Shown here one piece after another: positions 25,208 to 56,275 of a stretch of DNA of 64,000 nucleotides. A program made the position numbers and the translations under genes. Below the pieces are notes generated by a model. It ran no database searches, was not told where the DNA came from, and saw only the letters and a program-made list of their open reading frames with translations. Every line of letters begins with the position of its first letter. Position 1 is the first letter of the stretch. The DNA comes from Rhytidiadelphus loreus (taxonomy: Eukaryota; Streptophyta; Bryopsida; Hypnales; Hylocomiaceae), in NCBI GenBank assembly GCA_947034895.1, contig OX344765.1, positions 31,067,001 through 31,131,000 of the forward strand, in the 5' to 3' direction.

Positions 25208-25539
25208 ACGCCACAACGAAGACTCCTGAAGTGGAATCGCGTGGAAGATATACTTAGGGTTGTTGACAGGATGGTCGCGGTCATAGAATGAAATGTCAAA
25301 GAATTGGCACAGCTTGTACGAAGTAATTGCCGACGCGTGGCTGCCAGACGCGAAGGCAAATCAGACGACGTATAGGCACGAATCAAGTCTCCTGAAGAAA
25401 CAATTCAAATCTCGGTATTCCAGAAGGACAAAGTTCAAAAAAAAAGTTTCATGTACATAACTACAGAGTGGAATGTCACAGTCAAGGGTACAGGCCAAAA
25501 AAATATGGTGCCTGCCAATGCAAAGAAGAAATAAACCGA

Positions 25540-26400: not shown

Positions 26401-27423
26401 ACCCCCGCTGAACTATGCCGGGCCCAACCACTCTGGTCATTCACTATGGTCATGAGCACATGTGCAGCTTCGGGATATATAACAAGTGAATGAACTATAC
26501 TATCAGGAATGTTTTTGGATTACGAGACAGCATCTTCACACGTCGATGATGCACGCTCCAATGAGGCTCAGAAACAATCGGGGGAACTACACTATTTGTA
26601 TGCATGAATTCAACTATTGTGAATGCAGGAATCCAATTCTTAGGCTACACTGATCATGAGTTCAAGGGAAGCACGAAAAGGAATTGCGCTCATCACATGA
26701 ATTCGGATTCCGAGAATTCAGAATTCTACGAAAAGGAAATCTTAGCTGTCCACTACGTACTAGCCATTTGCGATTCAATCACTCGGGAATTACAATGCGC
26801 GAAGACGCTATAGGCAAGCGCAATCAAGGAATCATTCAAACAATGGACCTCTAAATGAACGACTTCTACGCATGTACCAAGACTAAACCCTAATCGGTCT
26901 CAATGCACGGACGCGACATGAAATGCATGGAGTGAAAAACAATGGAAGCGTACCTCCAATTATCAAGGTCCGATTCGGTGGAGGTCCACCCGCAACACAA
27001 ATTCGAATTGGCCAACTTGCTACGCGCAAAGCTGCAAGACATGAAATTCACCACAATAAAGCGCAAATAGACGAGGTTGTTTAAAATGGAAAATCAAACA
27101 GCGAGCCTTTCAAGAGGAAAACAATCGAAATGAAAAGCACCTTTCACTTCCAGGGTGATGAAGGAAGCTGAGCAAACGGAATGGAGAGGTTGGCGGGTCC
27201 AATGCGAAGGCTGAGAAATCACCGTACACTTCACTGGAGAACTGCCGAAGGTTGCTTCGCAACTTCTGTGTGTCTACCAAAAAAAGGCAGGAATACACTT
27301 TGACACCGGAAAACCTAAAACCGCCGATAATATGCGACGACGAGGAAAGAGGACGACAACCTCACACTAGAAGTGAAAGGTAGTTAATGCGATGCAGTAA
27401 TTTTTAATTGTAAGTTGGAACTA
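26401..27423. other. Unannotated stretch upstream of the palindrome array
   Basis: A TATA-like GGGATATATAAC occurs at about 26471. Only short frames without coding character are present; a leader exon of the minus-strand DUF7869-like gene could lie here but cannot be shown. Confidence 0.35.
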
Positions 27424-27425
27424 AT

Positions 27426-27754
27426 AAGGTGGAAGCACCCCAAATTGACAGTTTAAAAAATTCAGCATATTTGGAGACAACATTTCAGGAAATTAACATT
27501 TTCGTGGTGTTCAAAAAAATGAAGAGGTTTCTGGGACTTTCAAAGTTTCAGTCCTCTAGACCACTGGAACCATCCTGAACGTGGACCCAAATCTGAATTC
27601 TGACAAATTCAGCACTTACCCAATCACAGTGAAGAGAGGAGAAAACTTTATGACACTTGTCAAGGACCATTCAATAAAAGCCCAGGGACAGTTTGATGTC
27701 CATCTAGGAACAGGGATTAGGTACAGGTGTCATATTGGGTGCTTCCACTTTAAC
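27426..27754. mobile_element. MITE-like inverted-repeat element, ~330 bp
   Basis: Terminal inverted repeats read GTGGAAGCACCCCAAATTGACA on the left and, as reverse complement, GTGGAAGCACCCAATATGACA on the right. The interior is non-coding. I could not identify a convincing target-site duplication, so the superfamily is open. Confidence 0.5.
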
Positions 27755-30700: not shown

Positions 30701-30914
30701 AAACACTATAATAATCAATTTTAAGGTGGTGCACAAAAATCATGTTCAACGCTAAACCTTCTATTTTATTTAGACCATTGCACTTCCCAAAACTGTATAA
30801 ATGGCCGTGACAATGAAGTGGAAAATAATACTTACGTCATGATCGTACGGAAGATGTATAATCCAAAACCAAATTTTATTTAATACCTTCTTATTTTTTT
30901 TTTTGGACATACCA

Positions 30915-31085
30915 TTTGCAAACCATGAGTCAAACTCTATAGTTTGCAGTTTGAAACCATGAGTCAAATTCTATAGTTTACAACTTGAAAACCATGAGTC
31001 AAACTCTATAGTTTGCAGATTGAAACCATGAGTCAAATTCTATAGTTTACAACTTGAAAACCATGAGTCAAACTCTATAGAATTC
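30915..31085. repeat. ~33-bp tandem repeat (ACCATGAGTCAAACTCTATAG type)
   Basis: Five to six copies of a unit containing CCATGAGTCAAA(C/T)TCTATAGTTT in tandem, alternating between two slightly different versions, which suggests a ~66-bp higher-order unit. Confidence 0.8.
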
Positions 31086-31324
31086 CTTAAAGCGTGCGAC
31101 TATAGGATGACTATGAATGCTCCATTGCTTTTACATTATGAATTCTATTCATAGAATGGTACCAATGAATGCTGTGAATCATTGGAATGTACAACAACAA
31201 TGCTCTTATTTGAAGCCATTCATGCCTCTAATCATGCCTTAGGATGCCGAAAGGTGCATTCAGTGAGTTGACGGGCCTCAAAAAGGCCGTTTCATCCCAT
31301 TCCTATGAAGATTGTTTGCTGCCT

Positions 31325-31700
31325 ATAATATTTAATAATTTTAAAAATTTTAAAAATTTTAAAAATTTAAAGAAATTTTAAAAATTTAAAGAAACTAAAA
31401 AAATTAAAAGGAATTAAAGAAATTGTAAAAATTGTAAAAATTGTAAAGAGATTTAAGAAATATAAAGAAATATAAGAAATATAAAGAAATTTAAAAAATT
31501 TGAAGAAATTTAAAAAATTTGAAGAAATTTAAAAAATTACAAGAAATTTAAAAAAGTTCAAGAAATGTAAAAAATTTCAAGAAAATTTAAAAATTCAAAA
31601 TTTTATTTAAAATTGTTAAAATTGTTAAAAATTGAGAAATTGAGACATTAAATTTAAAAAATTTAAAAATTAGAGAAATTTAAAAATTTAAAAATTATGG
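31325..31700. repeat. AT low-complexity tract (AAATTTAAAGA type)
   Basis: A run made almost only of A and T with recurrent AAATTTAAA and AAGAAATTT units. Confidence 0.8.
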
Positions 31701-33914
31701 AAGAAGGTTGAATGTAATCAGTTATCAGTGGTATTCAAAAAATTGAACCTAGACATACTTGTGATAACACTATAATTTATGCAATTCAGTAGCTTTTCTA
31801 ATTGAAATGGCTGTTTTATATTCAATTTAGCTATTTTAGAACTAGTTTAAACTATCTCTTGAGAATTTGAATTTTTTTTGGGTATCTATGTATTGTATGA
31901 AAATGATGAGCCATGTATGATAGTTCAAAAAACCGATATTTCCAACATCTCAATATTTCTGGGACAATAAATAAGAAAATAATATATATAATTTGTTAAT
32001 GCATGTTAACCCCTAAGTGCCTAAGCCTTTCCAAGTGTGTTTTTCCCATGAGAAAAGAACATGGGCTTATAGTTATCTCCATTGAAATAAAATGAATTTT
32101 TTTCAAAATCTAACCGTATGGATGTTTAAAGAGCTTGCTTATTAGTATGTACACCAATTTTGAGTGCAAAATTGCATAAGAGTTGTTAGATTATAATAAG
32201 AGAAATGTACGTTTTCTAGTAAGTTTTAATATGTTGTCCCTCTCCACAATGTTTCAGAAATTTGCACATAAAAGCTTTTTGGGATTAGAAGTGACATGAA
32301 CAACTACAAATTGTGTTAGCACACTAAAATACCCTTTCAAAAAACTTAAGATCACTTGAAAAGCTATTAAACTCATTACACAATCCACCTTGCAATTGTT
32401 GAGATGCAATTTTTTTAATAAGTATAATTCACAAATAACTCCAAATCAACACTTGCTTGTTTAAATTTTCAATGGTGAAAATTATGAAAACACTTTACTC
32501 TTTCGATTGGGACCATTTTCAAAGCCAATGAATAAGTGGAAGTTTTTAGATCTCAAATCAAGTGAAATTGCTCAAAGTTGAAAAATGAAATAAAATTAGC
32601 AAGCTTTACTCTTCCATTAACGGACATAAATGGCTTTGGAGACCTCTCAACACTCAAATATGTACCTTTCTCAGTGAAAAATGAAAGTTCTGAATAGTTA
32701 ACCCTGAAAAATGCCCCCAAAACATTTTAAGACGGGCAAACGAATTAAACTGCTCACTTCAAAATGAGCCTGAAATTTCAGATCGACCATATATGGTCGA
32801 TGAAGCAGTTAGGGGTTAAGAACAATCGTGTAGACTTCATGACGAAATGAAATGTAACCACCTATTATTTATTTCCTTGGAAATATTCATTAAAACTTAT
32901 GGTAGAATATGACATTGTTTTGTTTTGTTTTATGGTAGAATATGACATTGTTTTGTTTTGTTTTGTTTTTGTTTGCGGTGGTTTTGCATTCAATAGTCTA
33001 AAGTAAACTTTGAAATCTTTTATCTAACTCAATTCATTTTTGGTACTTGTCTTTTTGGTACTTGTTATTATAAAAATGCCGGTGTTTTAGGGGTTAATAG
33101 GGTCAATAGAAGACAAAGTAAAAATTCCCTTGGACTACTAACGCAGTATATTAAAAAATTTGAATTGATTGTGATTTCCTTTGCCATGTGAAAGCATTCT
33201 CTTCAAATGGTGTTTCACTTCAACTTTCTAGGGAACTTTATTGTCTAAAGCACAAGTTGTTTTTAGTTACCGCCAAGCTAGACTCCTGAAATTGTATCAT
33301 TAATGTAATTTTTTCTTCATTAGTTATTACGTACTCTTTTTTTCGATAAATTGGAGTAAAACTTCCTCCCACATGTATTGCATTCATACACAGTTTAGCT
33401 TGAGTGAAAGATTAAAAATATAATTATAAAAAAAGATTAGGGTACCAAAATTAACATATAGTTATGATAAAACCTAATTTACATTTATCGTGGATTTCAT
33501 TCAAGTTCCCTTAATAAAGATTCTATATGTAGAGTGAAAAGTGCACTTTAAGTGTATTCCATTTACTTTGAAATCTTATACTTCTCTATAGGAGTCCTCA
33601 CAACTAATACTAAACAATGTGATTAATTATTAAAAAAGGAGTTCGTGGATATAATATTTTTAAAAAATATAGTTGTGATTTAATTATTTCACTATTCAAA
33701 TAGCTTTTTTTCCTCATACATTATATTTTTTCCCAAGGGAGCAATGGGGCTAAGGTTTTTGCTGGCCCAATTTTCCATTTGAGGCGGGATTGGGGTTGGA
33801 TTGGGTTCTTCCGTTGGATTGAACAAACCTCTAACATCGATAAAGAGGATTTTATTTATTTGTTTTTAAAACCTACTTCATCTTTGGTTTCATTTCATGT
33901 CGATTTCATTTCAT

Positions 33915-34012
33915 CTTTCTTTGTGTGGATTCTTCATCACTCCATGATCATGAGCTATGGATTTGTGTGGATTCTTCATTACCCTATGATCATGAGCTAT
34001 GGATTTGGGTTA
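33915..34012. repeat. ~42-bp direct duplication
   Basis: A block with GTGTGGATTCTTCAT and ATGATCATGAGCTATGGATT occurs twice in tandem with few differences. A frame across it has no coding character. Confidence 0.7.
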
Positions 34013-35514
34013 AACCGATGTTGCATAACAGATTTTTGTTTTATACATTTTCTTTTAAATAAGCAGCAATAAAGAAGTATAACATAAAAAATAAAAAATA
34101 GTGTTTACTGAGAAAAATAGCATAGTTACGGTTAAAGTTGACCCAACTCATAATTGGAGTAATTGCAGGTTTAACTTGTGGTGGATGCATTTTTAAAATT
34201 ATAATTTTAAAAACAAAAACATATAAATTATGAATAGAAAATAAAAAATTATTAAAAAAAAAACAATAAAAAAAAAGAAGTAGTGTACCTAATAAAATTT
34301 TCTTTTGTTATAATTAATTAAATAGTACAAATTAATTAATTTTAATTTTACTAAGGAATATAAAAATTTTGGGGAGAAAAGGGAGAAAAGATCAAAAGGA
34401 AGTCTAAACATTAAGTATCTTATATATATTTGTCATATATTAAATAGAAAGGAAAAAAATATATATACATAAAATATATAAAAAACAAAGAAACACCTTT
34501 TAATTTTTTTGGAATAGAAAAAATAGGAAGATAAAGGAAAGGCAGTGTATTTTATAATTTTCTTTTATGGAGCAATCCAGAAATCCAAATGCCTATTAAT
34601 CAAGAATTCAGCCTTACAATCGGGCTTCAACACTTTACATTGCCTAGGGCCTGAGTCATGAATTGGAATTTGACCCTAGAACTCAACCTCAACCCTGTAC
34701 ATTATCTAAGGTTGGAGTCGTGATTTAGGATAAGATTGGTGGCAGATCAGGCCAGCCTTCCATCCTGCCTGAGGTTGTGTGTATACCGGCCCTAAGAATC
34801 AAAAGTTTTATAGGGGTTCAAATGTACTAGTAGATGTGTGCATTTAAAGAAAAAAATATACTAAATTTCACTTAGAGAAGTACACAGTTTTTACTTTGAA
34901 TAAAAAAGGCATTATTCATCTCCTTATTATGGTTCTACTAATTACCTAAATGACATTTGTGTCCTATAGAGTTGATCATCCACAATTGTTATAATCTAAA
35001 AATCCAACGTTTGAATTTTTTATGATTTATTTTGATTCATATTAAACAAAGTAGCATTTACATTTGTACACTTTAAAATACTTATTTTAGGCGCAAATAT
35101 GAGGAAGACAATAAGAAACGAAGGTACGACAATTCCTTGGAAAATGCTACTATGAGCAAGTTCTTGGGGCTACCACTGCGTTATACAAAATAAATCATAA
35201 TAGTGTATGAATAACATGTATCACAATTATGCCTATAATAGACTACAGTTTAACAATTCTAAGGCTAAATATGGGTGGTCCAAGTGGACCCCAAGGTCTT
35301 TTCTAGAGGTAAGGAGTTCATTATTTCCTACACTTTTATTTGCAATGTCATGTTTTAAGAAATTAGTAAATGAAAAAGACAATAGAATTTTAAGTGTAGT
35401 CTGAATATGTACGATTGACAGAGTACAACCGAACTTGGATAAGTGTTACCTCGAGAAGTGTTAAAACTCTATATGTGTTATGGAGATTTCCGCTCCCTTC
35501 AAATTAAGACTAGT

Positions 35515-36276
35515 GAGTACAAGCATGCTTGGGGTACCCTAGTCAAGAACCAAGGAACAGGAATGAAATAATTTTTGATTAGCCTATTTTACAAAAATAA
35601 ATTAGAGTAATTTTTTAAAAACATTGATTATTGTTAGAACACATATAGGCAAATAATTTTCATGAATCAAAACCTACTAAATCTTTAATTTTCATATTTG
35701 TTAGGATATAGCAGCTGATATTATATCAATGGAAAATATACATGTATATACAAGAATTTTACCATGATTTTTTGCCTAATAGTATTCACTACTTTACAAA
35801 TTACTTATCATGTTTTAATTATGAAATCCAAAAGAATCTCAAATTTTGAATTCCTTTTAAACGTAACCCCTCCTTGTTATATTTAGGATGATTTGAAAAA
35901 TAATAATAAATAGTTAAATATCCCATATCAAGTTATAAATTTGTAAAATTGGTTATTAAAACATCATAAACCAATGTAGTGATTTGAAAACACTTTCTAC
36001 TAAATATTTATATTCCTTCTTGATTCCTAAATGAAAAATGGACACTGCGACAGAGTCCTGAATGGGGCTTCAGGAATCATATTAACAACTTTAATCAATT
36101 AAAGGTAACTTTTTTTTAATGATTTCATATTCTATTCTATTTGAAGCAAGTAAATTTGTATTAAAATTAAGTTTCTACAGAAAAATTTGTAGCCTAATCC
36201 TACATTAAAGAAATGAAATTCACTATATATTATTGTGTGACGGTGTTTATGGGGTACCCCAAGCATGCTTGTACCC
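35515..36276. mobile_element. Inverted-repeat element with TAGT target duplication, 762 bp
   Basis: The left end reads GAGTACAAGCATGCTTGGGG and the right end, as reverse complement, GGGTACAAGCATGCTTGGGG. The element is flanked on both sides by TAGT (35511-35514 and 36277-36280), a likely 4-bp target duplication. The interior is AT-rich without coding potential, so it is non-autonomous. The terminal repeat itself contains the palindrome AAGCATGCTT. Confidence 0.65.
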
Positions 36277-36280
36277 TAGT

Positions 36281-36980
36281 AAGTGTTATGTGTTAAGTGT
36301 TACGCAATGTCGCGCTCGCGACTTAGTTGCAAAGTGACTCTAGATGTCCATTTTAGAAACAAACTAATAGGTAGAATGATGTATTTTTCCCGATCATAAA
36401 CTAAAAGATCATATATTTTTAAGCTCATATAAAGTAAAAGATAAGTGTACTTTTAAGTTTATAAACCCAAACTTTGAAGAAGTTCTTGAAGCGAAGACCT
36501 AATGACACCATGTTATCTATTAGGAATATTGAAGCACTAGAGAAAGAAGTACAATCTTGGCGTGACGTAGAAACTCACCAAAATACTATTGATTCATTGT
36601 TTCGATGGACTTAGATGAATAATGAATCAATATTTTGTAATTTCATCCATTTTTTCTATAAAAGTTATGTATTTACCTTTTTAATCTTTCTAATTTTTTT
36701 TTTTTTAAGTGTTACAAATCATCGGCATCACCCTCTATAAGTGTTATGTGTTACTAGTGTGTAAGTGTTAATAACTAAAAGGATGCTCCCAACCCCTAAC
36801 ACTTATCGAGGTTCGACAGTAAGTGAGTTGAGTGGTAGGCTTGGGGGCAGGTTTGGGAGTAGCGTGGAGCCTCGGAGAAGGTTTCCAGCAGGATCGGTTG
36901 TCCTGGAGGTTCGGACCAGGTTTGGATGAGCGTTGGTGTACCATTGGTTTGGATCGCCGTCAATGACGTCTGGCGGTCGT
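36281..36980. other. Spacer with scattered AGTGTTA repeats
   Basis: AGTGTTATGTGTTA-like words recur at 36285-36310 and 36735-36775, but no gene can be supported. Composition changes from AT-rich to GC-richer near 36850, approaching the candidate leader exon. Confidence 0.45.
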
Positions 36981-37542
36981 CTCTCCGCGCGCACTTTCCT
37001 AGTTTTCTTGTTTTGCTTTCAGCTTGCCGCCTCGCTCTTCCTTGTTTCTGTTTCTAGTTTTCTGGAGCACATGCAGTGGAAATTTGTGGCAGTGGGTTTC
37101 GGATTTGTAGAAGGTGTCTTCTTGCACGGGAAGTTGTGGTTGGTGGGCTTCTAATTGGTGGTACGTGCGCTGAATTTCTTGTTGGGAGGGCGCTTTCATT
37201 GATGTTTTGGGAGGGCGCTTTGAGGGAAATTAGACTGTACAGTTTCTTTTGGTGGTGTGTCAAGTAGCAGCATTGAGGTAATTTCCGTTTCATGTCGGTG
37301 CGATTTAGGGTTCTTCGGGGACGATGCGATCCAGGAGGAAGTGACTTGAGTTGGCAGCGTAGGCGCGACTTCGGGTGTAAGAGTTTGTGTGTGCGCCTTG
37401 AGCTTCCACAACCCCGCGACAGAAGCAGCTGAAGAACAAGTTTCGATTTCAGCGCGCGGCGAGTTCAGAGCGGTAGCGGTGTCTTCGTTTCAGCGAGGAG
37501 GAGAGACTTGTTCTTTCACCCAGAACTAGCTACGCATTGCAG
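36980..37542 (+). other. Candidate non-coding leader exon of the ParB-like gene
   Basis: A GC-richer block ends in a strong donor, GCATTGCAG|GTAAGT (intron from 37543). A good acceptor, CTGTCTGTGCACAG|, lies at 39696, four bases before the ATG at 39701. Together they would define a 2.15-kb 5'-UTR intron that contains the whole palindrome array. The 5' boundary of the exon is not visible. This is inferred from splice signals only. Confidence 0.4.
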
Positions 37543-37579
37543 GTAAGTGTCATGTTTTTTTTTCATTCCATCAACAAGT

Positions 37580-38030
37580 TTAGTTCTCTCGTCTGCTGGT
37601 GCCTTCTTCCGATTTCACGAGAGGTAAACTAGCTGTCAAGCGGATTCATCAAATGCGGATTTAGGGTTTAGATCTTCTGCTGGTCCTTCTGCCGATTGCA
37701 CGAGCTTGTTTCTAGCTGTCAAGCAGATTCATGACGCGAGGATTTAGGGTTTAGATCATTAGTGGTGTTGCATTTCGAGTTCTGGATTTTGTGACTTGTA
37801 ACTTTGTTGATTTGCTACCCATATTCAAACATGTCAACCAGTATTGCTGCCATTTGAACATGAGCGGTGGAATTTATCGGTTAGTGCATTGCATTGCATA
37901 CGGAATTGCGATTGCATGGCACTGCAAACGTCATTGTGATTGCATTGCATTGCATTCGTCAATGAGATTGTATTGCATAGCAGTCGTCATTGTGATTGCA
38001 TTGCATTGAAATTGTCATTGCTGTAATTCT
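37580..38030. repeat. Direct duplication and GATTGCATTGCATT repeats
   Basis: Two copies of a ~95-bp unit (TCTGCTGGT..TTCT..CCGATT..CACGAG, ending GGATTTAGGGTTTAGATC) lie at about 37590-37760. From 37890 to 38020 a degenerate GTGATTGCATTGCATT / CGTCATT unit recurs four to five times. The TTTAGGG words are isolated, not a telomeric array. Confidence 0.65.
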
Positions 38031-38119
38031 GGTGCATAGAAAAATGGATAGGAGATCAGCTAGGTAATCGATACAAAAGATTGGGTCCCTGTAACCGCGC
38101 ACCCTCAAAGGCGCTTCAA

Positions 38120-39520
38120 ATGGTTTAGAGCGCCCACCCTAAACCGTCGCCGCCCTTCATGGTTTCGGGAAGGATCAGAGCGGGCGCTCTGAACCATTTC
38201 AAGCCGTGAAGGTTCAGAGCGCCCGCTCTGATCTTCCAAACAGCCTACATCGTTCCGGAAGGATCAGAGCGGGCGCTCTAAACCACTCCTAGTTGGGGAG
38301 GTTCAGAACGCCCGCTCTGATCCTCCAAACAGCCCACATCATTCCAGAAGGATCAGAGCGGGCGCTCTAAACGACTCCTAGTTGGGGAGGTTCAGAGCGC
38401 CCGCTCTGATCCTCCAAAAAGCCACAACATCCCGGGAGGACTAGAGCGGGCGCTCTAAACCACTCCTAGTTGGGGAGGTTCAGAGCGCCCGCTCTGATCC
38501 TCCAAACAGCCCACATCATTCCGGAAGGATCAGAGTGGGCGCTCTAAACGACTCCTAGTTGGGGAGGTTCAGAGCGCCCGCTCTGATCCTCCAAAAAGCC
38601 AGAATATCCCGGGAGGACCAGAGCGGGCGCTCTAAGCCACTCCTAGTTGGGGAGGTTCAGAGCGCCCGCTCTGATCCTCCAAAAAGCCCACATCATCTCG
38701 GAAGGATCAGAGCGGGCGCTCTAAACCACTCCTAGTTGGGGAGGTTCAGAGCGCCCGCTCAGATCCTCCAAACAGCCCACATCATTCCGGAAGGATCAGA
38801 GCGGGCGCTCTAAACCACTCCTAGTTGGGGAGGTTCAGAGCGGGCGCTCTGATCCTCCAAAAAGCCACAACATCCCGGGAGGATCAAAGCGGGCGCTCTA
38901 AACCATTCCTCGATGGGGAGGTCCAGAGCGCCCGCCCTGATCTTCCAAACAGCCCACAACATTCCCGGAGGATCAAAGCGCCCGCTCTAAACCATTCCTA
39001 ATTGGTGAGGTTCAGAGCGCCCGCTCTGATCCTCCAAACAGCCTACATCGTTCCGGGAGGATCAGAGCGGGCACTCTAAACCACTCCTAGTTGGGGAGGT
39101 TCAGAGCGCCCGCTCTGATCCTCTAAAAAGCCACAACATCCCGGGAGGATCAGAGTGGGCGCTCTAAACCACTCCTAGTTGGGGAGGTTCAGAGCGCCCA
39201 CTCTGATCCTATTAGAATGCTAGGGGGTGATTGGGGAATCAGGGCGGGCGCTCTGAAGCTCCAGGACCATAAGCAGTAGCTCCCGCTCCAGTCTTCAAAA
39301 TACCCCACAACATTCTGGAAGGACCAGACCAGGCACTCCGAAACATTCCGAGGAGTCGAGCATCAGAGCGCTCGCCCTAAACCATTCTGATGGTTGATGT
39401 ATATCAAAAGAATGAGAACGGGGGCTCTGGCCATTCCAAGACAAGGAGGATTAGAGCGCCCGCTCTGATCTCCCAAGCAGCCAACAGAATTCAGGGAGGA
39501 TCATAGTGGGTGCACTAAAC
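38120..39520. repeat. Large array of palindromes in 88/89-bp tandem units
   Basis: About twelve regular units lie between roughly 38200 and 39210, with more diverged sites on both sides. The anchor CTCCTAGTTGGGGAGGTTCA recurs at 38286, 38375, 38463, 38552, 38640, 38729 and 38818, alternating 89 and 88 bp. Each unit carries two sites about 42-46 bp apart: ATCAGAGCGGGCGCTCT (GG centre) and TCAGAGCGCCCGCTCTGA (CC centre). The latter is an 8-bp perfect inverted repeat around two bases, the form of a site bound by a homodimer. The array ends about 180 bp before the ParB-like gene's ATG. Confidence 0.9.
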
Positions 39521-39700
39521 CTCCACCATGATTGATCCCAAGCATTCGCAATTTCAGATTCCAATCAAATGATGATTATGAATCAACTTAGGTCCTTCGG
39601 TCGAAAACTACTTCATAGTTAGTAGTTCCACGATAGATTCATATCCATGTCCGGATTAGAGCGCACGGTCTGATTTGTACCACTGTCTGTGCACAGTGCA

Positions 39701-40264
39701 ATGGAGTCCTTCCTCGACAGCACGCCCCACCTCACCGGGTACATCAAACCAATTGCGTCAGAGAGAGTGCACGAGTCCTGGACGGCACTCGTCGAAGGGA
39801 AAACTCCTTTGGAGTTTGTCGCATCCAAGGCCCTGTGGACCGTGGAGATGAGCTACCTCGAGGGCTCCCCCGTATTTTGTTTAGAACTAGGCTTCACAAG
39901 TAACGGTGACCCCAGATGGAAAACATTCAGGGAACTCGTAGTCATCAATGTGAATGTGCTGCGCGAAGCCATTCTGGTAGATGTAGTGAACACTTCGAAC
40001 AACGCATTCGGAGTGCTAGCCATTAGGATAGAAGATGAGATGACGTTCTGTCACGAACGCATCCTGAAAAATTACGAGCATGTTCCCCATATATTCCAAA
40101 CCTTGATGCTCGACATCAGAGGTAGAGTAGAAGCTCATTTAGACGATTTTGTAGCAATTGGTCAGGCAGTAAAATCTTTTCTCACCAATGCAAACAGTCT
40201 ACAGGCTGCAGTAACAGTCGAACTCCAGTCCAAGCAGAAGCAAGTAAATCAAATGGACTCGTAA
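39701..40264 (+). CDS. N-terminal segment of the ParB-like gene (187 codons to first stop)
   Basis: The frame begins MESFLDSTPH directly after a good acceptor (GTGCACAG|TGCA-ATG) and is soluble, mixed alpha/beta in character, with a helical C-terminal end. It stops at TAA (40262-40264) but the same frame stays open for another 396 codons, so the stop looks secondary. No domain is recognised. If the stop is real, this is a stand-alone 187-aa protein. Confidence 0.5.
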   Translation: MESFLDSTPHLTGYIKPIASERVHESWTALVEGKTPLEFVASKALWTVEMSYLEGSPVFCLELGFTSNGDPRWKTFRELVVINVNVLREAILVDVVNTSNNAFGVLAIRIEDEMTFCHERILKNYEHVPHIFQTLMLDIRGRVEAHLDDFVAIGQAVKSFLTNANSLQAAVTVELQSKQKQVNQMDS

Positions 40265-41452
40265 GGTCGACAACAGAAGAAATCCAAGAGGGGAGGAGCA
40301 TCGAGCTCCAGTGCAACCACGCAGGCCAGACCGCCGGCCGCATCGGCCCTGGCTGGAGCCTCTAACGTGGCGCAAACTCGACCCCGTGCTTCTCCCGCGT
40401 CAGAGGTAACCGAGACGGGCGCGAACATCCCAGCGCAATCGGCAGCTCGAACTGGTGACACACCAACCGTCCCGGAGACAGACCCAATCATCCCTTCGCA
40501 ACCTGCTGAAGAATCTGCGGGGCATTCCGGACCGAGGTCGCGGGAAAAGAAAAAAGCCACGAGGAAGAGGAATCCTCAACCCGAGGTCGCGGCCGGATCA
40601 TCGCAAGATGCGGCGAGGATGGTCAGGCAACGGCGGGCAGATGCTGAGTCGCCCAGCTCCTCACAGCAGAGCGACCTGCCGGACAACACGGACGTCTCCG
40701 AGGAGGTCGCGCAGAAGCAGGCGATCAAGAAGGTGAATGGGAAATGGTTGGACAACCCAGACACCGTGCCTTACGATCCCGACGCCGTTTCGGATAAGTT
40801 GTTCGTGGATCTCGTCTTGAAGAGGGAGGCCAAGCGCTCGGAGGAAGAAGAGGCGAGGAAGCGACTGAAGGCCGAGGCTGTGGCGAATAAGAAGTTCAAA
40901 GAACTGTCTAAGTACATGTACATATTCGGGCAGGGGACATTCTTTGAGCTCGAAGTCGACGACATGATTCAGGCGGACGAGAAGTCGGGTATGATCTTCC
41001 GACCCCTGGAGAAGAAGGGTGTGATGGCCGTGCTTGATCAAATGGTCAAGGTCAACTTCACCAAGCAAATCCTGACCGTGATGTCGGACACGGAGGCTAG
41101 GCCAACATGCTGGGCGGACTGCGTCAAGTCCTTTCCGCTGAAGATCATCAACGGCCAGCACACCTGGAAAGCGGCCAAGGAAATCATCTCGGGAGAGGCA
41201 TCGGACGACGACGAGGCACTGAAGAAGAAGGTGCGCAAGTGGACATGCGAGGTCGTATGGTCCGACAACAAAAATCACTTACACGCGCTGTCGTGCAAGT
41301 GCGACGACGGGAACGTGACAGGTCCGTATCTGTCGTCGCTGCCGGCTACAATCCAGCACTGTCGCTATCTGTGGGACAATGCTCGAAGGCCGGCGCAGCA
41401 GCGGAAGAACCTGAGGAAGGAAGAACAAGGCGAAGAATTTGCTCGCTACGAG
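40265..41452 (+). CDS. ParB-like domain exon
   Basis: This is the direct continuation of the frame beyond TAA. After an Ala/Pro/Ser-rich linker and a Lys/Glu-rich helix, the segment from about 40930 reads FFELEVDDMI, later FRPLEKKGV, then IINGQHTWKAAKEI and CEVVWSD. This matches the order of ParB/sulfiredoxin-type domains: a short beta strand with Asp pair, an RP box, then the G-x-H-[RT]-x-x-AA box. The usual Arg of the last box is Thr here, so activity is doubtful. The exon ends GAG|GTACGC at 41452. Confidence 0.55.
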
Positions 41453-41514
41453 GTACGCATTTTAGTCGATCCATCCTGCCCATTCAATTCATGTTGAATC
41501 TAAGTCTGGGAGTC

Positions 41515-41635
41515 CGAAGATCAAAGCGGGCGCTCTGAATCGATTTGGTTAGGATACTGTCTATGGATAGGAAACTGCCCTCCCTGAGATGGAGGAATTA
41601 GGACTGGCAGGATCAGAGCGCCCGCTCTGATCCGC
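41515..41635. repeat. Two palindrome sites inside an intron of the ParB-like gene
   Basis: One site reads TCAAAGCGGGCGCTCTGA (about 41521-41538) and the other TCAGAGCGCCCGCTCTGA (41613-41630), identical in core to the upstream array. They sit within the proposed 193-bp intron. Confidence 0.75.
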
Positions 41636-41645
41636 TGAACCTCAG

Positions 41646-43091
41646 TCAGTCTACACGGATCCAACTTCCGAGTCCGACTCAAATGTGTTAATTTTCCTGC
41701 AAGAATTTCGTGTCAAAGCCGAGCAGAGTTTCGAATCGACTGGTCTTCTCAAGCCGTCGGGCAACTCCCAACGAATCTACGACCTGGACCGGATGGGGGA
41801 GCGGAAGGTGATCATGGCTTCGGAGGAGACTTGGGCCGCATGGCAGAAGGTTTTCCAAGGTCATGAGTCGGGGTCGCTTCACGACATTGACTCCGGGGGA
41901 CCCTTCAACGAAGCGACGACCAAGGAGGGGAACGTGAAGTTGTACAAGTTCCTCCCCATCACGAGCAACATGATGAAGAACCTGCATGGCCTCGATGATG
42001 CGGCGGTGGGTGAGCTTGCTCGGAAAATCCTCGATATACCGCCGAAAGTCTACCTCAACAAGAAGCCCAATTCGTGGACTTCGGCCATTCCCATCGCCAT
42101 GTGGTGCACGAACAGAAAGTACAAGAACGTGCTGGCGAGGGAGTTGGCAGACAGGGGCAAGTCGAGCGGCATGATATCGGCAAGCGAAGTCATCAACGCA
42201 GCCGGAGACATTGAACCGCAAGCGTGGCAGGACTTCAAGACACAGTTACGCATCAACGGCTTCCACACCTGGTACCTCCAGACCATCGATCCGGAGTACC
42301 TGAAGTCGGAGGTGCGCTCAGGAAAGAAGAGCGTCCTACCGTCCGATGAGCTCCTTGCCGCCTTCGACCGTGTCATGGTCAACTATGAACGGTGTGAGTA
42401 TGTGCGGAGGTATTCGCGGGCCTCAATGTGCCGCTGGCTTCGAGCCGGAAGCAGGTTCGACCCAACGCTGTATGTCTACAAGAGGGAGAACTGGGTCCCC
42501 CAGCGCGCCGTAGACGGACCCGCTAACCTCAAGTACTGCGAGGTGGGCATCATCGATTTCCGCCAGTTTCCGGGTGTGGAGACCATGGAGATCAATTCTG
42601 CCAACAAGAAAATCCTCGAGGAGGTGGAGGTGGTGTCGCAGTCCGTCATATCCTCGTCGGTCCACACGTGGATGCTGATCTTCTTTTTGAAGCGGGCGGC
42701 TGATGTGGACAAAGCTGTGAAGGAACTGTTTCCTGATTACAACATGCGGCGGGAGTGCAAGTACGTATGTCGGGCGGGGGAACCTACGTACAAGGAGAAG
42801 AACAAGGTCTCTGTGATGTACCTGCAGAGGTCCCGGTGGAGGTGGGTCAACTCGAGTGTGGTGAACACGAACGACGAGGTGCCCTCGCTGTCTGCTGATG
42901 AGGACGAGGACCTGACCAATGAGGGAACCATCTACATGAATCAAGAGGTCTGTTGTCACGACAATCCGAGGACCTTGTCGAAGTATGAGCTCCGATACGA
43001 GGTGTATCTGCGCTTCATCGACAAGTTCTGCAGGGATCAAGGAACCGTCATGTTGGTCTTCGCTGGTGCGAAGCCAATTTCGGCGTGCACG
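41646..43091 (+). CDS. Methyltransferase-like exon
   Basis: An open phase-0 exon entered near 41646 (after CCTCAG; 41727 is an alternative) and left at ACG|GTGAGC. It encodes about 480 residues. Towards the end come hydrophobic strand-like segments (CEVGIIDFRQF, then HTWMLIFFLKRAADVDKAV) and KVSVMYLQRSRWRW. The last piece, TVMLVFAGAKPISACT, continues across the intron into MLSRSSVTLIIST, recalling the FxGxGS...RxVxxE segment of class I DNA methyltransferases. A catalytic (D/N)PP(Y/F) motif is not evident, so it may be inactive or not a methylase at all. Confidence 0.4.
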
Positions 43092-43202
43092 GTGAGCACC
43101 TGACCACGCTGTGTTTTCATAGTTCTTCTGATGTACATCCCGATGTAGCGGGTGTAAGACATTGTAATATTAGTAATGACTAAATCCTTTGAGTGCCTGC
43201 AG

Positions 43203-45292
43203 ATGTTGTCGCGTAGCTCTGTCACTCTGATCATCTCCACTCAGAAGGCCCTCCTCGTCAATCCCAGCATAATCGCAAAGGCGCGGAGATGTGGCCGGAT
43301 ATTCTGGTCCCCGCTTGGACATTGCGTTACGGCTATGTCACCCCGACACCGGCGAGAGCCACCCGGCCGGAGTTGGACGAGGAGCCGAATCCTACCGTCG
43401 AGGAAGCGAAAGCGGACGAGGCCCTCAACATCGTGGACGCCGACCACGTTGAAATCGAGCACCTCGACATCAACGCGGACGAACAGGAAGGAGATGAACA
43501 CAGTGAGCAGACCGGGAATCGGCAAGACGAGGAAGGCGTCCAAGGAAACCAGGAGCCGTCGTTGGATCGTGCTAACAACGATGCGACCGAGCAATCAGAG
43601 TAGCCTGACCGGAGCGGGTGTCCAAAGCCGGACTCTCACCATGATGAGCCGGAGGATCCAATTCCTCCGGCGTCGCCGTCTCACTCCACTCCTGCAGCAG
43701 ATCAGACCGCCCGCTCTGATCCCATCCCACCTCCATCTTCTTAGTCTCAAGTTGGAGCAGATCAGAGCGGGCGCTCTGATCCCATTCCTCCTCCGTCTTC
43801 TCCTTCTCAGACCGGAGCAGATCAGAGCGGGCGGACTGATTCCAGTCCACACCAATCCCAGTCTGATCCTCTATCTCCTGCCCAACTCTATCGACCATCT
43901 CAGCCACTTGGGAGCTCCCGCTCAGGACTGGTCCACTCCCGCTTGCCTGCTTCCCTCTCCCCGCAGTCCTGGCGTCGACCTCCGCCATCCCAACAGGTTC
44001 AGGGCAGGTGCTCTGATGTGCGAGCTCACTTGTTTCGCGTTCCTGCTTCCCATACTCCATCGATCGGAACCGCGAGCTCTCATCAACCGGAATTGGTGAC
44101 GCCATCCACTCCACCCAGGATGCAGATAGAGGACCTGCAGATAGAGTTGGGTCTGCTGAGGTCACGACTCTCTGAAGAGCAGCAAAACGAGATGGAGAAA
44201 GTGAGGCTTGATCTGATTCATACCCCCGCCACGCCCTCCGAGAAGACGATGAAAGAGAGGATCCTGGAGTCGCGGACCATCGTCAAGGACTTGAAGTCCC
44301 TCCGTCCCGCGTCCGCTCTTAGAGAGGAAGTGAGCGTGACGACATTGACGCTTGTGCAGGTCGCCGTCGACGCTCTTGAGTTGGAGATCCCTGAACCCAG
44401 CCCTGAAGAGCAAGCGATGTGCGCCCATGCTACGGCGAGCGCGAGAGAACTGTCGAGAGTTAAGAATTCCAAGGAGAGCCCGATCGAACTCGACAACATG
44501 GATGAATTGGACCTCGAGACGCGCTTGTCCAATTCGGCCAAGCTGAGGCAGGAGTATGACGAGACTCTCAGGGTCGCCCAAGCTGCATCATCATCGGACG
44601 CGAGGACTGTATCTAGGGTCGGGGGGAGTTCCGCCGCGGCGACTGCGGAGACGAAGCCGGACGTCAAGGTCGGGATCAACGTCACATTCGCGGAGAGAAT
44701 TGCCGAACAAGTCAGGAGGAAGGAGTCTGGGAAGATGGACAAGTTCATTGAAGAAATCGATGCGCTGAGGAGGGAAAAGGAGGAAGAGAGGAAGCAACAA
44801 CAGCTGAGGGAGGAGAAAATGGAGCGGGAGAGGCAACAATGGCTGCAGGAGGAGGCGGAGAAGAAGGCGAGGCGAAAGGCGAAGAAAGCAGTTAGGGAGA
44901 AGGAACTTGCGGAGGAGAGGAGGAAACAGGCCGAGAAGGATGAGCTAAACGCAGCGGCTTGGAAGGAGAATATGGAGTTCATAAGGGAAATGAGGGAAAT
45001 GAAGTCGCAAATCCATACTTCCAAGACGACGCCTTCTCCCTCTCCTCCTCCCGTCTCTCCAATTCCAACTCCAACGAGCGAGCTTCACAACGTCTCGGGA
45101 GTCTCCACGAACTCGGCTTCGGCGACGGCGTCCGCGTCATCTGGCCTTCTACACCTGGCCTCCGGAGAGGCAACGCAAACCGGGGTGAGTGTCACTCACG
45201 AGCCAGACGTCGATGACCTGGCCCTCAGTCAATTTCCGTTTGTGCATGTCCATGAACTCTCCCATCGTCCTATTGTCGTACGCGCAGTCTAG
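43203..45292 (+). CDS. C-terminal acidic, repeat and coiled-coil segment of the ParB-like gene
   Basis: The exon starts at CTGCAG|ATG in the frame of the previous exon, but the protein-like frame changes near 43280. From there on it encodes an acidic stretch (VEIEHLDINADEQEGD) to TAG 43601. The same frame continues past a second TAG (43742) through Ser/Pro-rich repeats, a Leu/Glu-rich region (IEDLQIELGLLRSRL) and a long Glu/Lys/Arg coiled coil (about 44690-45010). It ends with a Ser/Thr-rich tail. The coiled coil suggests oligomerisation. Confidence 0.5.
43702..43839. repeat. Palindrome sites inside coding sequence, 60-bp period
   Basis: Sites start at 43702, 43762 and 43822 (TCAGACCGCCCGCTCTGA, TCAGAGCGGGCGCTCTGA, TCAGAGCGGGCGGACTGA). 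In the coding frame they give repeated peptides of the form ADQSGRSDPIPPPSS. A diverged fourth site lies near 44000. The exact 60-bp period keeps the frame. Confidence 0.75.
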
Positions 45293-46635
45293 GCGTAGGT
45301 ATCTTTAACACCACAAAAGCGTTAAGATGACACAAGTTATCGTCCTAGGGAATTCCAGATGTTGTCGCGATAGATAAGTGTCCGGAACTACGGATCTACC
45401 CGGAAATGACAGTCCGCTGTAGGATCCGGCACAACACAAACCCAAGTTCCGGAAATACTGTCTTCCGGAATCAAATCCGGATCCTCCCTGATCCGGATCT
45501 CTACTCTCACTATCCGTCACACCGGTTTTTGGTACCTCTGTTTTACCCTCAGAGGGTCCTCACTTGCTCTTTCCGAGGGGTGGGGAACATCACCACTCAA
45601 GTAACACACATATCAACTCCTAAACAACAAACAACTATCCGTCCTCAAAGTTCTCAGTCCGGTAAGGAGGAAAAGATGGTCCCTCTCACAACATTCCGGG
45701 TGGCCACCCGGAAGGTAGGTCACGCAGAGTTACACCCACACCCGTCCTTACTACAACGACACTCAGCTATTTTCCGGATCAAGCTTTCACCTACTCCTGA
45801 GGTTGGCAGACCTTCCGGTGGTTTGGGAATATTCCACTAGGCGGTTGCCGACTTCCGCACGGGACTCCTCTCGAGTTCCCGGACTAGCTCCCTGACCACT
45901 ACCGGATCCCACCGGATCACCGTTCCAGCGATTTAAAGGCACCACGCACAGCTCCTCACTCGTAAACTAGACTCAACTGCAAAACAACCGCGGATAGTTG
46001 GAATCCGGAACTAACGGACTTACTTTCTAACTGTCGACCGCTCTTGAGGTTGGCAGACCTTCCGATGGTTTGGGAATGTTCCTCTTGGCGGCTGCTGACT
46101 TCCGCACGAAACTACTCATGAGTTCCGGATTAGCTCCCTGACCACTACCGGATCCCAACGGATCACCGTTCCAGCGATTTAAAGGCACCACGCACAGCTC
46201 CTCAAGTTCAATCTAAACTATTCTGCAAGTTACCTTCAGCCGGATCCGGATACCAACCAATCCGGATTCCTACCTTGCACACTCTCCCGGATACACCCAC
46301 ACACAAGTAATCAAGACGCGATACGCAAGATAATGATTCCCAAGGTGTTTATTCTTAGGTGCTCAGATTGAATGACACAAAATGGAATGACAGGCCACAA
46401 GCCGGCCCGCCCTTAAAAACCAAAACAACACGACCAAAACGGTCCAAAGAAAAAGCGGCCAACGGCCAGCTGAAAATCCAGACAACGGCCAAGTGACCGT
46501 TCCGGGAAAAATGGAAAGCCGTTAAATTCCTAGAAATCCGGAACTACTTAGCATTCCGGATCAGCGGATCCCACATCCGGAAAACCCGCGATGAAGACAA
46601 AATACTAAAACTAACAATCCAACTACGCAACCTAG
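45293..46635. other. TCCGGA-rich spacer with a ~170-bp direct duplication
   Basis: Two diverged copies of a ~170-bp block (GAGGTTGGCAGACCTTCCG to CACCACGCACAGCTCCTCA) lie at about 45795-45960 and 46040-46208. The hexamer TCCGGA recurs far above chance. Frames here lack coding character. Part will be the 3' UTR of the minus-strand gene at 46636. Confidence 0.55.
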
Positions 46636-48552
46636 TCATTTACCCTTCCGCGCCTTCTTCGCTGACGTTCCGCCCTTCGTAATCCGGGTCGGCGCCTTCG
46701 GCCGGATCTGCTTCGTCGGGGTGGACTTGGTCGCGGATCGGGTCCTTGGCGGACCCGGATCCGTCTCCGCATACTCTGACTCGGAAGAGGAGTTCGTCAC
46801 TGCCTCCTCTTCCTCCGACTCGAGAACCTCCTCCGGATCGCTGCTGACCTTCCGCCGAGTAGCCTTCTTCTTCTCCAGGTCGATGACCTCAATCGGGCTC
46901 GACGGAGGCGGCCGCGGAGGAGTCTCCTGCTGCATATGTGTGAACTCCTCCGGATGGGTCCGGGCCGGATTCTGAATCCCAACCGGATCCTCCGTCATTG
47001 CCGTCACGTCTGCAGCGGGGTCCTGGAGAGGCGGGAAGAGGTTCACTGAGGTAGTCCGGGTCGTTAGAACCGGATCCGGAATCCTCCTCCCATCCGTAAT
47101 ATCCTTCTGCCCCGAGGATCTTCCGGATTGCTGGGCAGACGATCGTTCTCCCAAGTTCAGCTGAGTTGTCTCCGAAAACTCACCTCCGGGTATCTCCGGA
47201 AACTCCTCCAATCCGCTGAGTGGATCGAAGTAGCCCACCAAGTGCCGCATTTCCTTCAGTGCGACCTCAATCCGTGCCTCGAACTCTACCAATATCTTCA
47301 CAACCTTGGTTCCGGAAATGTGGCCTTCCCGGGTCATCTGGTTGTTCCAGAGCGCGGATCTGGTGATGATATCCGTTGGTGGGTCGATGAGGTCTCTCAA
47401 CTTCCGGACCAGCTCCGTCGCATCCGTCGCTCGTTTGTTGGCGGTGTGCATCTCCCTCTCCGCCCACGTTGCGTGGTTTTGAAGATGGTCGCGCTCCGCC
47501 TCTACTGCCCGGATCCGTCCCTCCAACAGGCGGACCATCTCCGGATCCGGTCTGCTCTTGATCGCCTCCACGATCTCCGTCTCGTCTGCTACCTTCAACA
47601 CCGTGCAGACTCTCCGGATCAGGGTGGCCATCCGTTCGTTGGCAGTCCTTTGACTCCGCAGCCAGGAGATCGTCGACTCGAAGATATCCAGTTCCGGATC
47701 AATGTTCCGGGATGGAACAGGATCCGGAAGCTGATTCTTTCCTCTTGAATCCGAATCCGTGCTCTTCCGGCGTGATTCGTGCTTCTCTGGTGAGTCATGC
47801 TCCAGTTCCGGTTTCACGTCCTCTTCCGGCTCCTCATCCGTCGGATCCGAATCCGGAGGCAGTCCGTATCGGAGAAGGCTATCTCCCTGCCGGTATATAA
47901 TATCTTCCGGACTACTGAGTACCTCCTGCTTGTGATACAAGTGGAGGAGGTACGGACTGATGGGGCTGGATTTCTTTCCCACCAGGTTTCCGGAAAGCTT
48001 GTCTACTATGGACTGGATGATGAGCCCCCAGCTAACTGGTCTAGGGGCCGGTTTCCCTCTTTCCCCTAAGGCTCCGAATACCGTGTTTGCCAGCGTTACT
48101 GTAATCCGGCTGGGCTTTTCCGGATACAGGATGGGGCTCAGAAACTCTAAGAGTCTCTGGTCCCTAGGGTTCCGGCAGTCGGAGGCAGTGTATCCCTCCT
48201 TCGGATCCGCCGGGTTCCGGAATCTATCCGCGGCGAATTTATCTGTCCGCCCAGCCCATCCGGATCCTCTAGAAGATGCGAAATAGACTCCGGCCCATAT
48301 CTCCGTTGTCCAGGACTTTGGACGACCTCTAACGGTTAGGTGGTACTGATTCGGAGCGCCATAGACTAACTCGTCTATCATCTCCTCGCTCCGGATACTC
48401 CAGGGTCTCTTCAGAAACCCCAGGCACCCCATATCCGTCAAGTCATCCTCCAGTTGCTGGTGGTGTTCCAGATTCTCAGGGATTTCCGGATTGATCATCC
48501 GGGCCGTGATCCCTGACTTCCATACACTGGGTCCTGCCATAACTACTGCCAT
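46636..48552 (-). CDS. 638-aa coiled-coil protein of unknown, element-like family
   Basis: An uninterrupted ATG-initiated frame. Residues 1-190 look globular with conserved-looking Trp/Arg/Pro residues. About residues 235-290 form an acidic, Ser-rich linker. Residues 300-410 are a Glu/Arg-rich helical coiled coil (RRVCTVLKVADETEIVEAI onward). The C-terminus is Pro/Ser/Thr rich with an acidic patch and ends in a Lys/Arg-rich nuclear-signal-like tail (TSAKKARKGK). A VIDL motif followed by basic residues is a plausible SUMO-interacting motif. The overall plan resembles structural proteins encoded by plant transposable elements, but I do not recognise the family. Codon use is unusual because TCCGGA recurs throughout, as in the flanks. 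Confidence 0.6.
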   Translation of the reverse strand: MAVVMAGPSVWKSGITARMINPEIPENLEHHQQLEDDLTDMGCLGFLKRPWSIRSEEMIDELVYGAPNQYHLTVRGRPKSWTTEIWAGVYFASSRGSGWAGRTDKFAADRFRNPADPKEGYTASDCRNPRDQRLLEFLSPILYPEKPSRITVTLANTVFGALGERGKPAPRPVSWGLIIQSIVDKLSGNLVGKKSSPISPYLLHLYHKQEVLSSPEDIIYRQGDSLLRYGLPPDSDPTDEEPEEDVKPELEHDSPEKHESRRKSTDSDSRGKNQLPDPVPSRNIDPELDIFESTISWLRSQRTANERMATLIRRVCTVLKVADETEIVEAIKSRPDPEMVRLLEGRIRAVEAERDHLQNHATWAEREMHTANKRATDATELVRKLRDLIDPPTDIITRSALWNNQMTREGHISGTKVVKILVEFEARIEVALKEMRHLVGYFDPLSGLEEFPEIPGGEFSETTQLNLGERSSAQQSGRSSGQKDITDGRRIPDPVLTTRTTSVNLFPPLQDPAADVTAMTEDPVGIQNPARTHPEEFTHMQQETPPRPPPSSPIEVIDLEKKKATRRKVSSDPEEVLESEEEEAVTNSSSESEYAETDPGPPRTRSATKSTPTKQIRPKAPTRITKGGTSAKKARKGK

Positions 48553-49051
48553 ATTCTATCCTCACTTCCGACTCACTTCCGCTAAGTTTCCGCTAATCTT
48601 CCGTTAAGTTTCCGTCGCCTGATCCGCTAAGTTTCCGTTCTACTTTCCGATGCAATCGGCACCGGCCTCCCCTTCTCTCCTTAACGCGTTCCTATCTCAC
48701 CACACTTTCACTCACTAAGCGCCATCGCGATAATCACGCGGAGAAAGAGGGAGAATGAAGCAAACAGCGGGGGTTAAGTAGCTTTTCGGCCTGGCATTCC
48801 CGCAAGTTCCCTAGCCGAACTAGGCCCTAGGGCCTACTCGGCCGGAACTTTCCGGTTTCCGGATTAGGGTTAGGGTTTCCGGATAGGGTTTCCGGATCCG
48901 ACTGTAACCCTAATTACAGTTTAAGGTTTTCCGTAAAGCCTCTAATTTCTATTTCTGGTTTTAGGCTTCCTATTCCCTACCTATTACGGAAATTTTGAAA
49001 ATTTCTACTCTATATAATTACTATTGTCTATTATTTCTGTCAATGTAGATA
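48553..49051. promoter_or_regulatory. Upstream region of the 638-aa gene, TTTCCG/TCCGGA-rich
   Basis: Directly upstream of the minus-strand ATG the sequence repeats CTAAGTTTCCG and CTTCCG several times (48570-48650), and GGTTTCCGGAT blocks recur at 48860-48900. No clear TATA box is visible on the minus strand. It could be promoter plus 5' UTR. Confidence 0.35.
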
Positions 49052-49953
49052 ATGCGTACTCCCACACCTATCATGCACGACGATGATCCTTACGACCTCG
49101 ACGTGGACTTGGGAGATATGGAACAGTCCTTCACTAACTTGACTGAGCAATATGCCCCGCGTGCAGGCCGCGATGGCGACGCAGCAGAGCCCGGAGACGG
49201 AAGAGGAGTAGGCGCCGGTCAATGTTGACGAGGCTCTTGCGGTGGGTAACCCTTCGACATAGCTCCCATCATTTATGTTTGTCGTGAAGGTGTGGACGCT
49301 ATGTGAGGGCGTTACGCCAGGGCCTTGAGTTCGTCCAGATCCCGGTGAGTCCACGGGGCTGTGGGTCCGTAGTCATAGGGGTTCTCTTTGTCTTCGCTAG
49401 GATTTCGGTTGTCATATTCATGGAGCGTAGACGTGGGCTTAGGATGTGAAAATCTCTTCTGTGAGAGTGGGTCCGTTTGTAAAACATTGTTATATTTGTA
49501 ATATATTGGATGTGTTGTTGACAAACATAAATTGCTCAGTCTCTGGTGACTGCATTCCATTTCGCAATACGTTTTTCTTTTCAATTGATTATGTGCAATC
49601 TAGTTACGCTCTTTTGATTTTGGGTTCAGGGTGACAAAGCTCTTGTACTGGGCGACGCGTCTGCAATGTCCCCACCTGTTCCGGTTGCTCCACCTCGTCG
49701 ATCGTTGTCCCCTCGCCGGAAGGAAACCGTCGCCATCCCCATGGAAGTCGACACTCCTGAGCAGGGTTGTTCGCTGCGACAGCGCGACACCGCGACAGAC
49801 AGACGTCGCGCGACATCTAGTAGAGCCCGCGCGACGTCACGAAAAGTCAAATTTACCTTTGACTTTACAGGAAATTACCCCCCTCTAGGTGGATGCCACA
49901 TGGCATCCACTTGGCAAACTGGAGGGTGCGTACGGGTAGGAGAGTGCGGGTAG
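49052..49953 (+). pseudogene. Broken two-exon gene fragment, acidic N-terminus and basic C-terminus
   Basis: An ATG at 49052 opens an Asp/Glu-rich frame (DDDPYDLDVDLGDMEQSF). Near 49155 the protein-like frame shifts, then meets TAG (49209-49211) and continues APVNVDEALA to a donor GCG|GTGGGT (exon end 49241). The next exon starts in phase at 49630 after GGTTCAG and encodes Pro/Arg-rich sequence (SLSPRRKETV), then RKVKFTFDFTGNYPPLG, ending at 49953. One frameshift and one TAG make it a probable relic. The repeat array at 49.93 kb overlaps its 3' end. Family unknown. Confidence 0.4.
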
Positions 49954-50266: not shown

Positions 50267-50421
50267 GCCAGTAGCCCATCATCATGCTATCACCTTCATT
50301 TTCCATTGAGGCTTTCTGTCTTGCAACCTTTGTTGGCTGCATGCGTGACCCTTTTGGATAATATATATACTATTTTTTGCTATCATTTGGTTCTTAGAAT
50401 TTTGCGACGTCTGCAAATCTC

Positions 50422-56089: not shown

Positions 56090-56275
56090 AACGATCACTT
56101 CGTCTCAAAAGTAGCCAACTAAGTACTATGCGGTTTAGGGTTGCAAGCCTAAACCATAGGTGTAAAAAATGCTAAACGTAATCCTATCACATTTAACATT
56201 TACAAAAATACAATGTTCTCGTGAAACACCCTATGTCATCCAAGCGTGAATAAAATGAGCCGTGCAAAGGGACAA

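Follow-up and report, generated by a model that had tools for sequence, protein, structure and literature searches.

What is a dense array of palindromes doing in front of a moss gene that carries ParB-like boxes? The question is raised by a stretch of 64,000 nucleotides from the moss Rhytidiadelphus loreus (contig OX344765.1, positions 31,067,001 to 31,131,000; hereafter the window, whose own numbering is used unless another locus is named), in which an 18-bp palindrome with the consensus TCAGAGCG-SS-CGCTCTGA fills 38125–39673 before a multi-exon gene of this kind. A first, sequence-only reading had proposed a ParB-parS-like system in which the gene product reads its own array. This accessory gene, a divergent transposase-like gene with a DUF7869 domain, and a palindrome array beside each of them all lie in one giant DNA transposon with terminal inverted repeats (TIRs). 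On the reading that we favour, and that we consider about evenly balanced as a whole, a protein of the element, most likely the accessory protein, would bind the palindromes of both genes, mark the element as self and keep it transcribed.

The palindrome and its placement

At three or fewer mismatches on both strands, the palindrome was matched 71 times in the window, where 100 shuffles gave an expectation of 0.02. At four or fewer there were 51 sites, while 200 shuffled half-sites in which the palindromic layout was kept averaged 2.0 and reached at most 27. Exact sites number 853 in the 407-Mb genome, and the reversed-pattern control gave 0. Tandem Repeats Finder returned an 89-bp array at 38164–39210 with 11.8 copies, each unit holding two sites, so that the palindrome array in 88/89-bp units described in the sequence-only reading is real and far above chance. 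That reading had also given the 2-bp spacer as CC; the centre is CC or GG in 279 of the 287 sites of this palindrome (palindrome 1) scored in the window and the fetched loci, and since it is almost always one of these two rather than neutral, the site has an orientation. Neighbouring sites alternate in orientation with few exceptions.

The sites are confined to particular parts of the element. Among the 45 in the window copy at three or fewer mismatches, 11 lie 5' of the DUF7869 gene, 28 in a putative intron of the 5' untranslated region (UTR) of the accessory gene (37543–39693; 25 of them within array 2 proper), two in intron 2 and four in a further probable intron, the introns being predicted from splice-like context and homologue boundaries. 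At the same threshold the roughly 8.5 kb of coding sequence is free of sites, as are the 11-kb spacer between the genes and a nested insertion of the window copy. The units of arrays 1 and 2 differ in sequence, and the palindrome and its alternation are common to both. Tandem arrays grow by slippage, and in another copy of the element (copy C, below) array 1 now extends over about 8 kb in 131-bp repeats (C1:17262204–17270256) and is a satellite in the making. It is nevertheless very unlikely that the arrays are functionless satellite expansions, given that palindrome and alternation are kept across different units and that single sites stand in introns.

The transposon and its copies

The limits of the element were defined by blastn of the window against palindrome-bearing places on the contig designated C1; comparisons are given without short alignments (<150 or <300 bp) or those within arrays, and protein matches are of at least 30 residues. 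In copies A (C1:16145627–16174877) and B (C1:17153302–17183336) the two genes and the two arrays recur with order and orientation unchanged; these are also the two copies in which both ends are present, with an element length of 29–30 kb. Copies A, B, D and E each end on the right in an inverted 31-bp TIR, that of E with 5 mismatches; in A and B the repeat has 1–3 mismatches at both ends, with AT on each side. AT also flanks all five left ends (window, A, B, C and the separate locus L020); of the right ends, those of A, B and D have it and that of E does not. The flanking AT in A and B fits a 2-bp AT duplication, a duplication of that length being weak evidence alone. Terminal inverted repeats and this target site duplication place the element among the TIR DNA transposons.

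The remaining copies are less complete. In copy C the frames of the DUF7869 gene are broken, the expanded array 1 and an array-2 stretch are present, and in the part fetched its ParB gene survives as a 32-residue remnant; D and E possess the ParB gene and the right end, their left parts not having been found complete. The window copy is itself without a right end, because homology is lost at 49760. Copies B and D continue for about 5 kb beyond the equivalent point, through an NIF/FCP1-like domain (PF03031; 40.5 and 38.7 bits against a cut-off of 21.8, E-values 2.8e-10 and 1e-9), absent from the window copy, to the right TIR.

Smaller rearrangements were also seen. A 0.8-kb repeat at 32005–32820 lies inverted at another place (window 27755) in A, B and C, and 700-bp units, direct and inverted, occur in the right part of the element (L028 at about 2100–3500, L027 at about 1735–3140). 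The nested insertion has a minus-strand open reading frame (ORF) of 639 amino acids (46636–48555), to which an ORF at about L028:7017–8708 is alike by eye.

Genome-wide association and a second palindrome

Do the arrays travel with the element? Among the matches listed, which on C1 extend up to 17.27 Mb, all 73 distinct exact palindrome sites fall in element copies, 27 in A, B, D and E and 46 in copy C, as expected if they do. Twenty-five of the 27 are within 3.1 kb of a match to the ParB core, the other two being the array-1 sites of B, some 15 kb away. Sites placed where promoters or enhancers would be might instead be read by a DNA-binding factor of the host, the element having borrowed host sites for its transcription. 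This seems improbable in view of the 73 of 73 listed C1 sites within copies and of the different site in the divergent relatives described next.

The ParB core has at least 152 matches in the genome (150 of 792 candidates scored). The 150 listed fall into two groups, 73 at 86–100% identity and 77 at 62–70%, with none between. No palindrome-1 site was listed within 1.6 Mb of a ParB match of 62–66% at C1:1740515. At two divergent relatives, L029 and L020, the repeated palindrome is TCAGACCG-CG-CGGTCTGA in place of palindrome 1. L029, assigned to the second identity group by its 64% identity and standing outside the 150 listed rows, is a divergent ParB-type locus with N-terminal, ParB-like, exon 2, coiled-coil and NIF parts in partly broken frames. 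L020 is a stretch of 8.4 kb with a left TIR (3 mismatches), a weak 19-bp match to the right one and a divergent DUF7869 relative, in which no ParB match was found. Over the loci scored there were 287 palindrome-1 and 34 palindrome-2 sites, the latter distributed over L029 (17), L020 (13) and L021-L022 (4, left unassigned). If a reader acting in trans is shared, the site should change at both kinds of gene, as seen at these two loci; a sister subfamily seems to use another palindrome at both genes, as it should if element and reader evolve together.

Proteins of the element

That the DUF7869 protein is a transposase is suggested by its place in the TIR element, and we call it transposase-like; a literature search (most subscription journals outside its scope) returned nothing mentioning DUF7869. 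For the accessory protein 20 homologues were collected, with names never going beyond 'hypothetical protein'. The sequence-only reading had placed the ParB-type boxes in an exon at 40265–41452. The boxes are there; the exon is longer, beginning at an ATG at 39704 and interrupted in the window copy by an in-frame stop at 40262. Homologues P0002 and P0003 have the same start and read through into the ParB-like part, and in other genomic copies the exon-1 frames are open over 607–609 amino acids.

Ratios of nonsynonymous to synonymous change (dN/dS, by the Nei-Gojobori method) were below 1 in all 26 pairs: 0.09–0.61 for exon 2 (10 pairs), 0.20–0.33 for the ParB part (6), 0.15–0.73 for the N-terminal region (6) and 0.22–0.28 for DUF7869 (4), the highest values being those of pairs with few changes. 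Selection on the proteins of the element appears to be mostly purifying.

The relationship of exon 1 to ParB is distant but supported, in agreement with the boxes first noticed by eye. Eleven family rows aligned by hhalign against six chosen phage ParB domains gave Prob=53, E-value=1.3e-4 and a score of 32.7 over 41 columns; none of 200 column shuffles reached this score (maximum 22.6), and two cross-controls gave 15.5 and 11.8. The PHROG family phrog_723 ('ParB-like partition protein') was matched by 6 of 15 members, best E-value 0.0077, around NGQHTWKAAKE. By itself this match would be insufficient, since stray matches were similarly strong: ARD (E-value 0.0068, two of seven exon-2 members), Myb_DNA-bind_5 (0.028, one of seven), 2OG-FeII_Oxy_6 (0.027, two of 15 ParB members) and phrog_11754 (0.023, three of seven). 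Searches of Pfam, NCBIfam and PDB sequences returned no accepted match for the ParB and exon-2 parts. An AlphaFold2 model of the ParB region was poor (pLDDT 41.8), and Foldseek gave no useful match to it.

Of 13 homologues in which the motif is present, 12 have T and one has S in place of the arginine of box II (GxxR), which characterizes the ParB CTPases; P0014 stops short of this position, and L029 has I. In the ParB-fold proteins tested, replacement of this residue abolished nucleotide binding (PMC12704722). A partition system for an episome, in line with segregation as one of three roles named in the sequence-only reading, would account for the distant ParB likeness and the clustered palindromes. 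We disfavour it as extremely unlikely: the palindromes belong to a TIR transposon in the chromosome, all 13 of these homologues are without the arginine, and no ParA was found in 20 ORF pieces scanned with Pfam, a scan of part of the ORFs that divergent forms could escape.

Exon 2 is perhaps a decayed N4/N6 DNA methyltransferase, amino-methyltransferases ranking first for its structural model (fold ranking only). At positions picked by eye, the supposed catalytic DPPY reads DFRxF or DLRxF in the five of six homologues in which the pattern was found, and FxGxG reads FAGAK or FAGSK in six of six, so that neither motif of a beta-class N4/N6 DNA methyltransferase is intact. Should the accessory protein be an active enzyme of this kind, it might modify the palindromes and mark the element in that way, as has been proposed in print for an algal gene class and as the fold ranking would allow. 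With both motifs degenerate at these positions, we hold such self-marking methylation to be quite unlikely.

Which protein would read the palindromes?

The proposed mechanism is as follows. The element contains the DUF7869 transposase-like gene and the divergent accessory gene, the latter resembling the published ParB-methyltransferase type and continuing into a coiled coil and an FCP1-like (NIF) phosphatase-like domain. Arrays occupy 5' regions and introns at both genes, and the site differs between relatives, which together suggest a self-recognition protein; we infer that the 18-bp palindromes are bound by a dimeric protein encoded by the element, most likely the accessory one. Because its ParB and methyltransferase chemistry has probably decayed, the accessory protein would be a reader rather than an enzyme. 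Dense binding would then mark the element as self and keep both genes transcribed, by anti-silencing or by activation, which we consider its most likely effect by analogy to VANC of VANDAL and TnpA of Spm.

Several results weigh against this proposal. No helix-turn-helix or other DNA-binding domain was identified, the protein of the window itself does not match phrog_723, and the profile-profile comparison of exon 2 with methyltransferases scored 12.6, under the shuffle mean of 14.2 (maximum 26.0). The second palindrome was met at one ParB locus (L029) and one DUF7869 locus (L020). Several copies are interrupted by stops: one in exon 2 of D, two in exon 1 of A, one in the DUF7869 ORFs of A and another in those of B, and the one in exon 1 of the window copy. 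Finally, the part of reader could fall just as well to the transposase, and other superfamilies provide examples of subterminal arrays to which transposition proteins bind. Here array 1 is directly 5' of the DUF7869 gene, and L020 has sites and a DUF7869 relative in a stretch where no ParB match was found; the transposase would read the palindromes for the transposition complex and for control of its own gene, the ParB-like gene being a passenger or helper. With array 1 lying 4 kb from the left end, array 2 in the interior and further sites in the introns of the accessory gene, we judge this version unlikely, though it is the most serious competitor to a reader encoded by the accessory gene.

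A more specific history, possible but doubtful, may be added to the reading by the accessory protein. A phage-type fusion of ParB and DNA methyltransferase might have been captured by a giant eukaryotic transposon, have lost its nucleotide triphosphate and S-adenosylmethionine chemistry, and have become a pure reader that clamps alternating palindromes at promoters and introns against silencing; subfamilies would stay apart through a simultaneous change of palindrome at the two genes. In viral contigs, a scan with the ParB alignment gave 37 pattern matches, 0 confirmed, and a search for the two palindromes matched 13 contigs with one site each; tblastn against phages gave one match for P0005, at an E-value of 10, and none for P0015.

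Features of the window

The features of the element are collected in Table 1. Elsewhere in the window, minus-strand ORFs at 16247–19753 resemble a Mutator-like (MULE) transposase with a SWIM-type motif by eye, Pfam giving nothing. The ORFs 50398–52929 and 54602–56104 have N-terminal parts that are alike by eye, the first with a RING-like match under the cut-off, and a protein kinase domain (PF00069, E-value 4.4e-12) is encoded on the minus strand at 58475–59836 among G-rich tandem repeats. No telomere repeat was present in the first 400 bases of C1, of which the first 200 are N.

Table 1. Features of the transposon copy in the window
Feature	Position	Strand	Remarks
Transposon copy as preserved	21392..49760		blastn against copies on C1; nested insertion inside, right end missing
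Left TIR, 31 bp, AT-flanked	21392..21422	+	exact match; also found at the left ends of A, B and C
Transposase-like gene, two ORFs	21913..25143	-	DUF7869 (PF25273) in second ORF; Pfam E-value 2.3e-43, 148.4 bits, cut-off 26
Array 1	25549..26411		131-bp units, 5' of DUF7869 gene; 11 sites at ≤3 mismatches, outermost (26394) at 4
Spacer between divergent genes	26501..37542		11 kb, 0 palindromes
Putative 5' UTR intron	37543..39693	+	holds array 2; CAG|GTAAGT ... CACAG; sequence context only
Array 2	38125..39673		89-bp units; CC and GG centres alternate for the most part; 4 mismatches in the outermost site (38125)
Exon 1	39704..41452	+	N-terminal region, proline-rich linker, ParB-like region (box I helix, box II NGQHTW)
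Intron 2, ends approximate	41453..41723	+	two palindromes (41521, 41613)
Exon 2, ends approximate	41724..43091	+	frame open as far as 43103; helical part followed by what may be a degenerate beta-class N4/N6 DNA methyltransferase; from homologues and fold ranking
Short acidic coding piece	43217..43600	+	protein-level match in A, B, D and E; none in L029
Probable intron	43601..44182	+	four palindromes (43702, 43762, 43822, 43999)
Coiled-coil-like coding part	44183..45273	+	by eye
Nested insertion	45274..49066		absent from copies A, B, D and E
Element continuation	49067..49760	+	homology ends at 49760

Comparison with known systems

For only a few transposon families in plant-like genomes is it known in detail how they escape silencing. 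The present element offers a candidate self-recognition system with a putative binding site, at least 152 ParB-region matches and two identity groups; if our reading is true, the protein of each subfamily should bind its own palindrome.

The nearest functional precedent is VANC of the VANDAL elements, a comparison already drawn in the sequence-only reading and an apt one: VANC binds to arrays of family-specific motifs that lie in noncoding sequence and in introns (PMC5735166). Loss of DNA methylation has also been linked to TnpA and MURA (PMC10398659). Short tandem motifs, their position in noncoding DNA and introns, and a protein and motif that differ together are common to VANDAL elements and the present one, a likeness of function only. 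The VANC21 motif is described as 9 bp long and in one orientation, whereas here the site is an alternating 18-bp palindrome, and the protein and transposase-like gene are different ones.

With chromosomal ParB-parS the element has in common a distant likeness of the N-terminal boxes and clustered palindromes; it differs in the missing box II arginine and the transposon context, and neither ParA nor a helix-turn-helix was found in what was scanned. The fusions of ParB and N4/N6 methyltransferase in phages (Gp25 and Gp24 of L053, and L054; the class is treated in PMC12704722) have the same order, the ParB-like part preceding the methyltransferase. Gp25 and L054 keep DPPY and FGGSGT, and Gp24 has SPPY and FSGSGT, whereas the moss protein is much larger and has no intact version of these motifs.

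In gene content the closest known system is Sola1-1_Ec32 of the brown alga Ectocarpus, an element of 21.5 kb in which a 1104-residue protein with ParB-like and N4/N6 methyltransferase parts is encoded on the strand opposite to the transposase (PMC12477816). That paper proposes that such proteins may bind and epigenetically modify their own transposon, and cites Iyer 2011 and Petroll 2025 for similar genes in green and red algae; our literature search, in which the other papers were judged by title and opening of the abstract, found only this one on the gene type. Compared by description, the two have in common a giant DNA transposon, an accessory gene opposite the transposase and a ParB-like part, the methyltransferase-like part being only possible to probable here. 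The moss element differs in its DUF7869 gene, degenerate motifs, arrays at both genes and NIF-like domain, and palindrome arrays are not mentioned in the part of the description of Sola1-1_Ec32 that was available. Since algal ParB-methyltransferase accessory genes are already published, the element represents a variant and not a new class; new here are the degenerate motifs, the palindrome arrays at both genes and the subfamily-specific palindrome. These features suggest that the ParB-methyltransferase genes of algal transposons, too, may serve by binding rather than by methylating.

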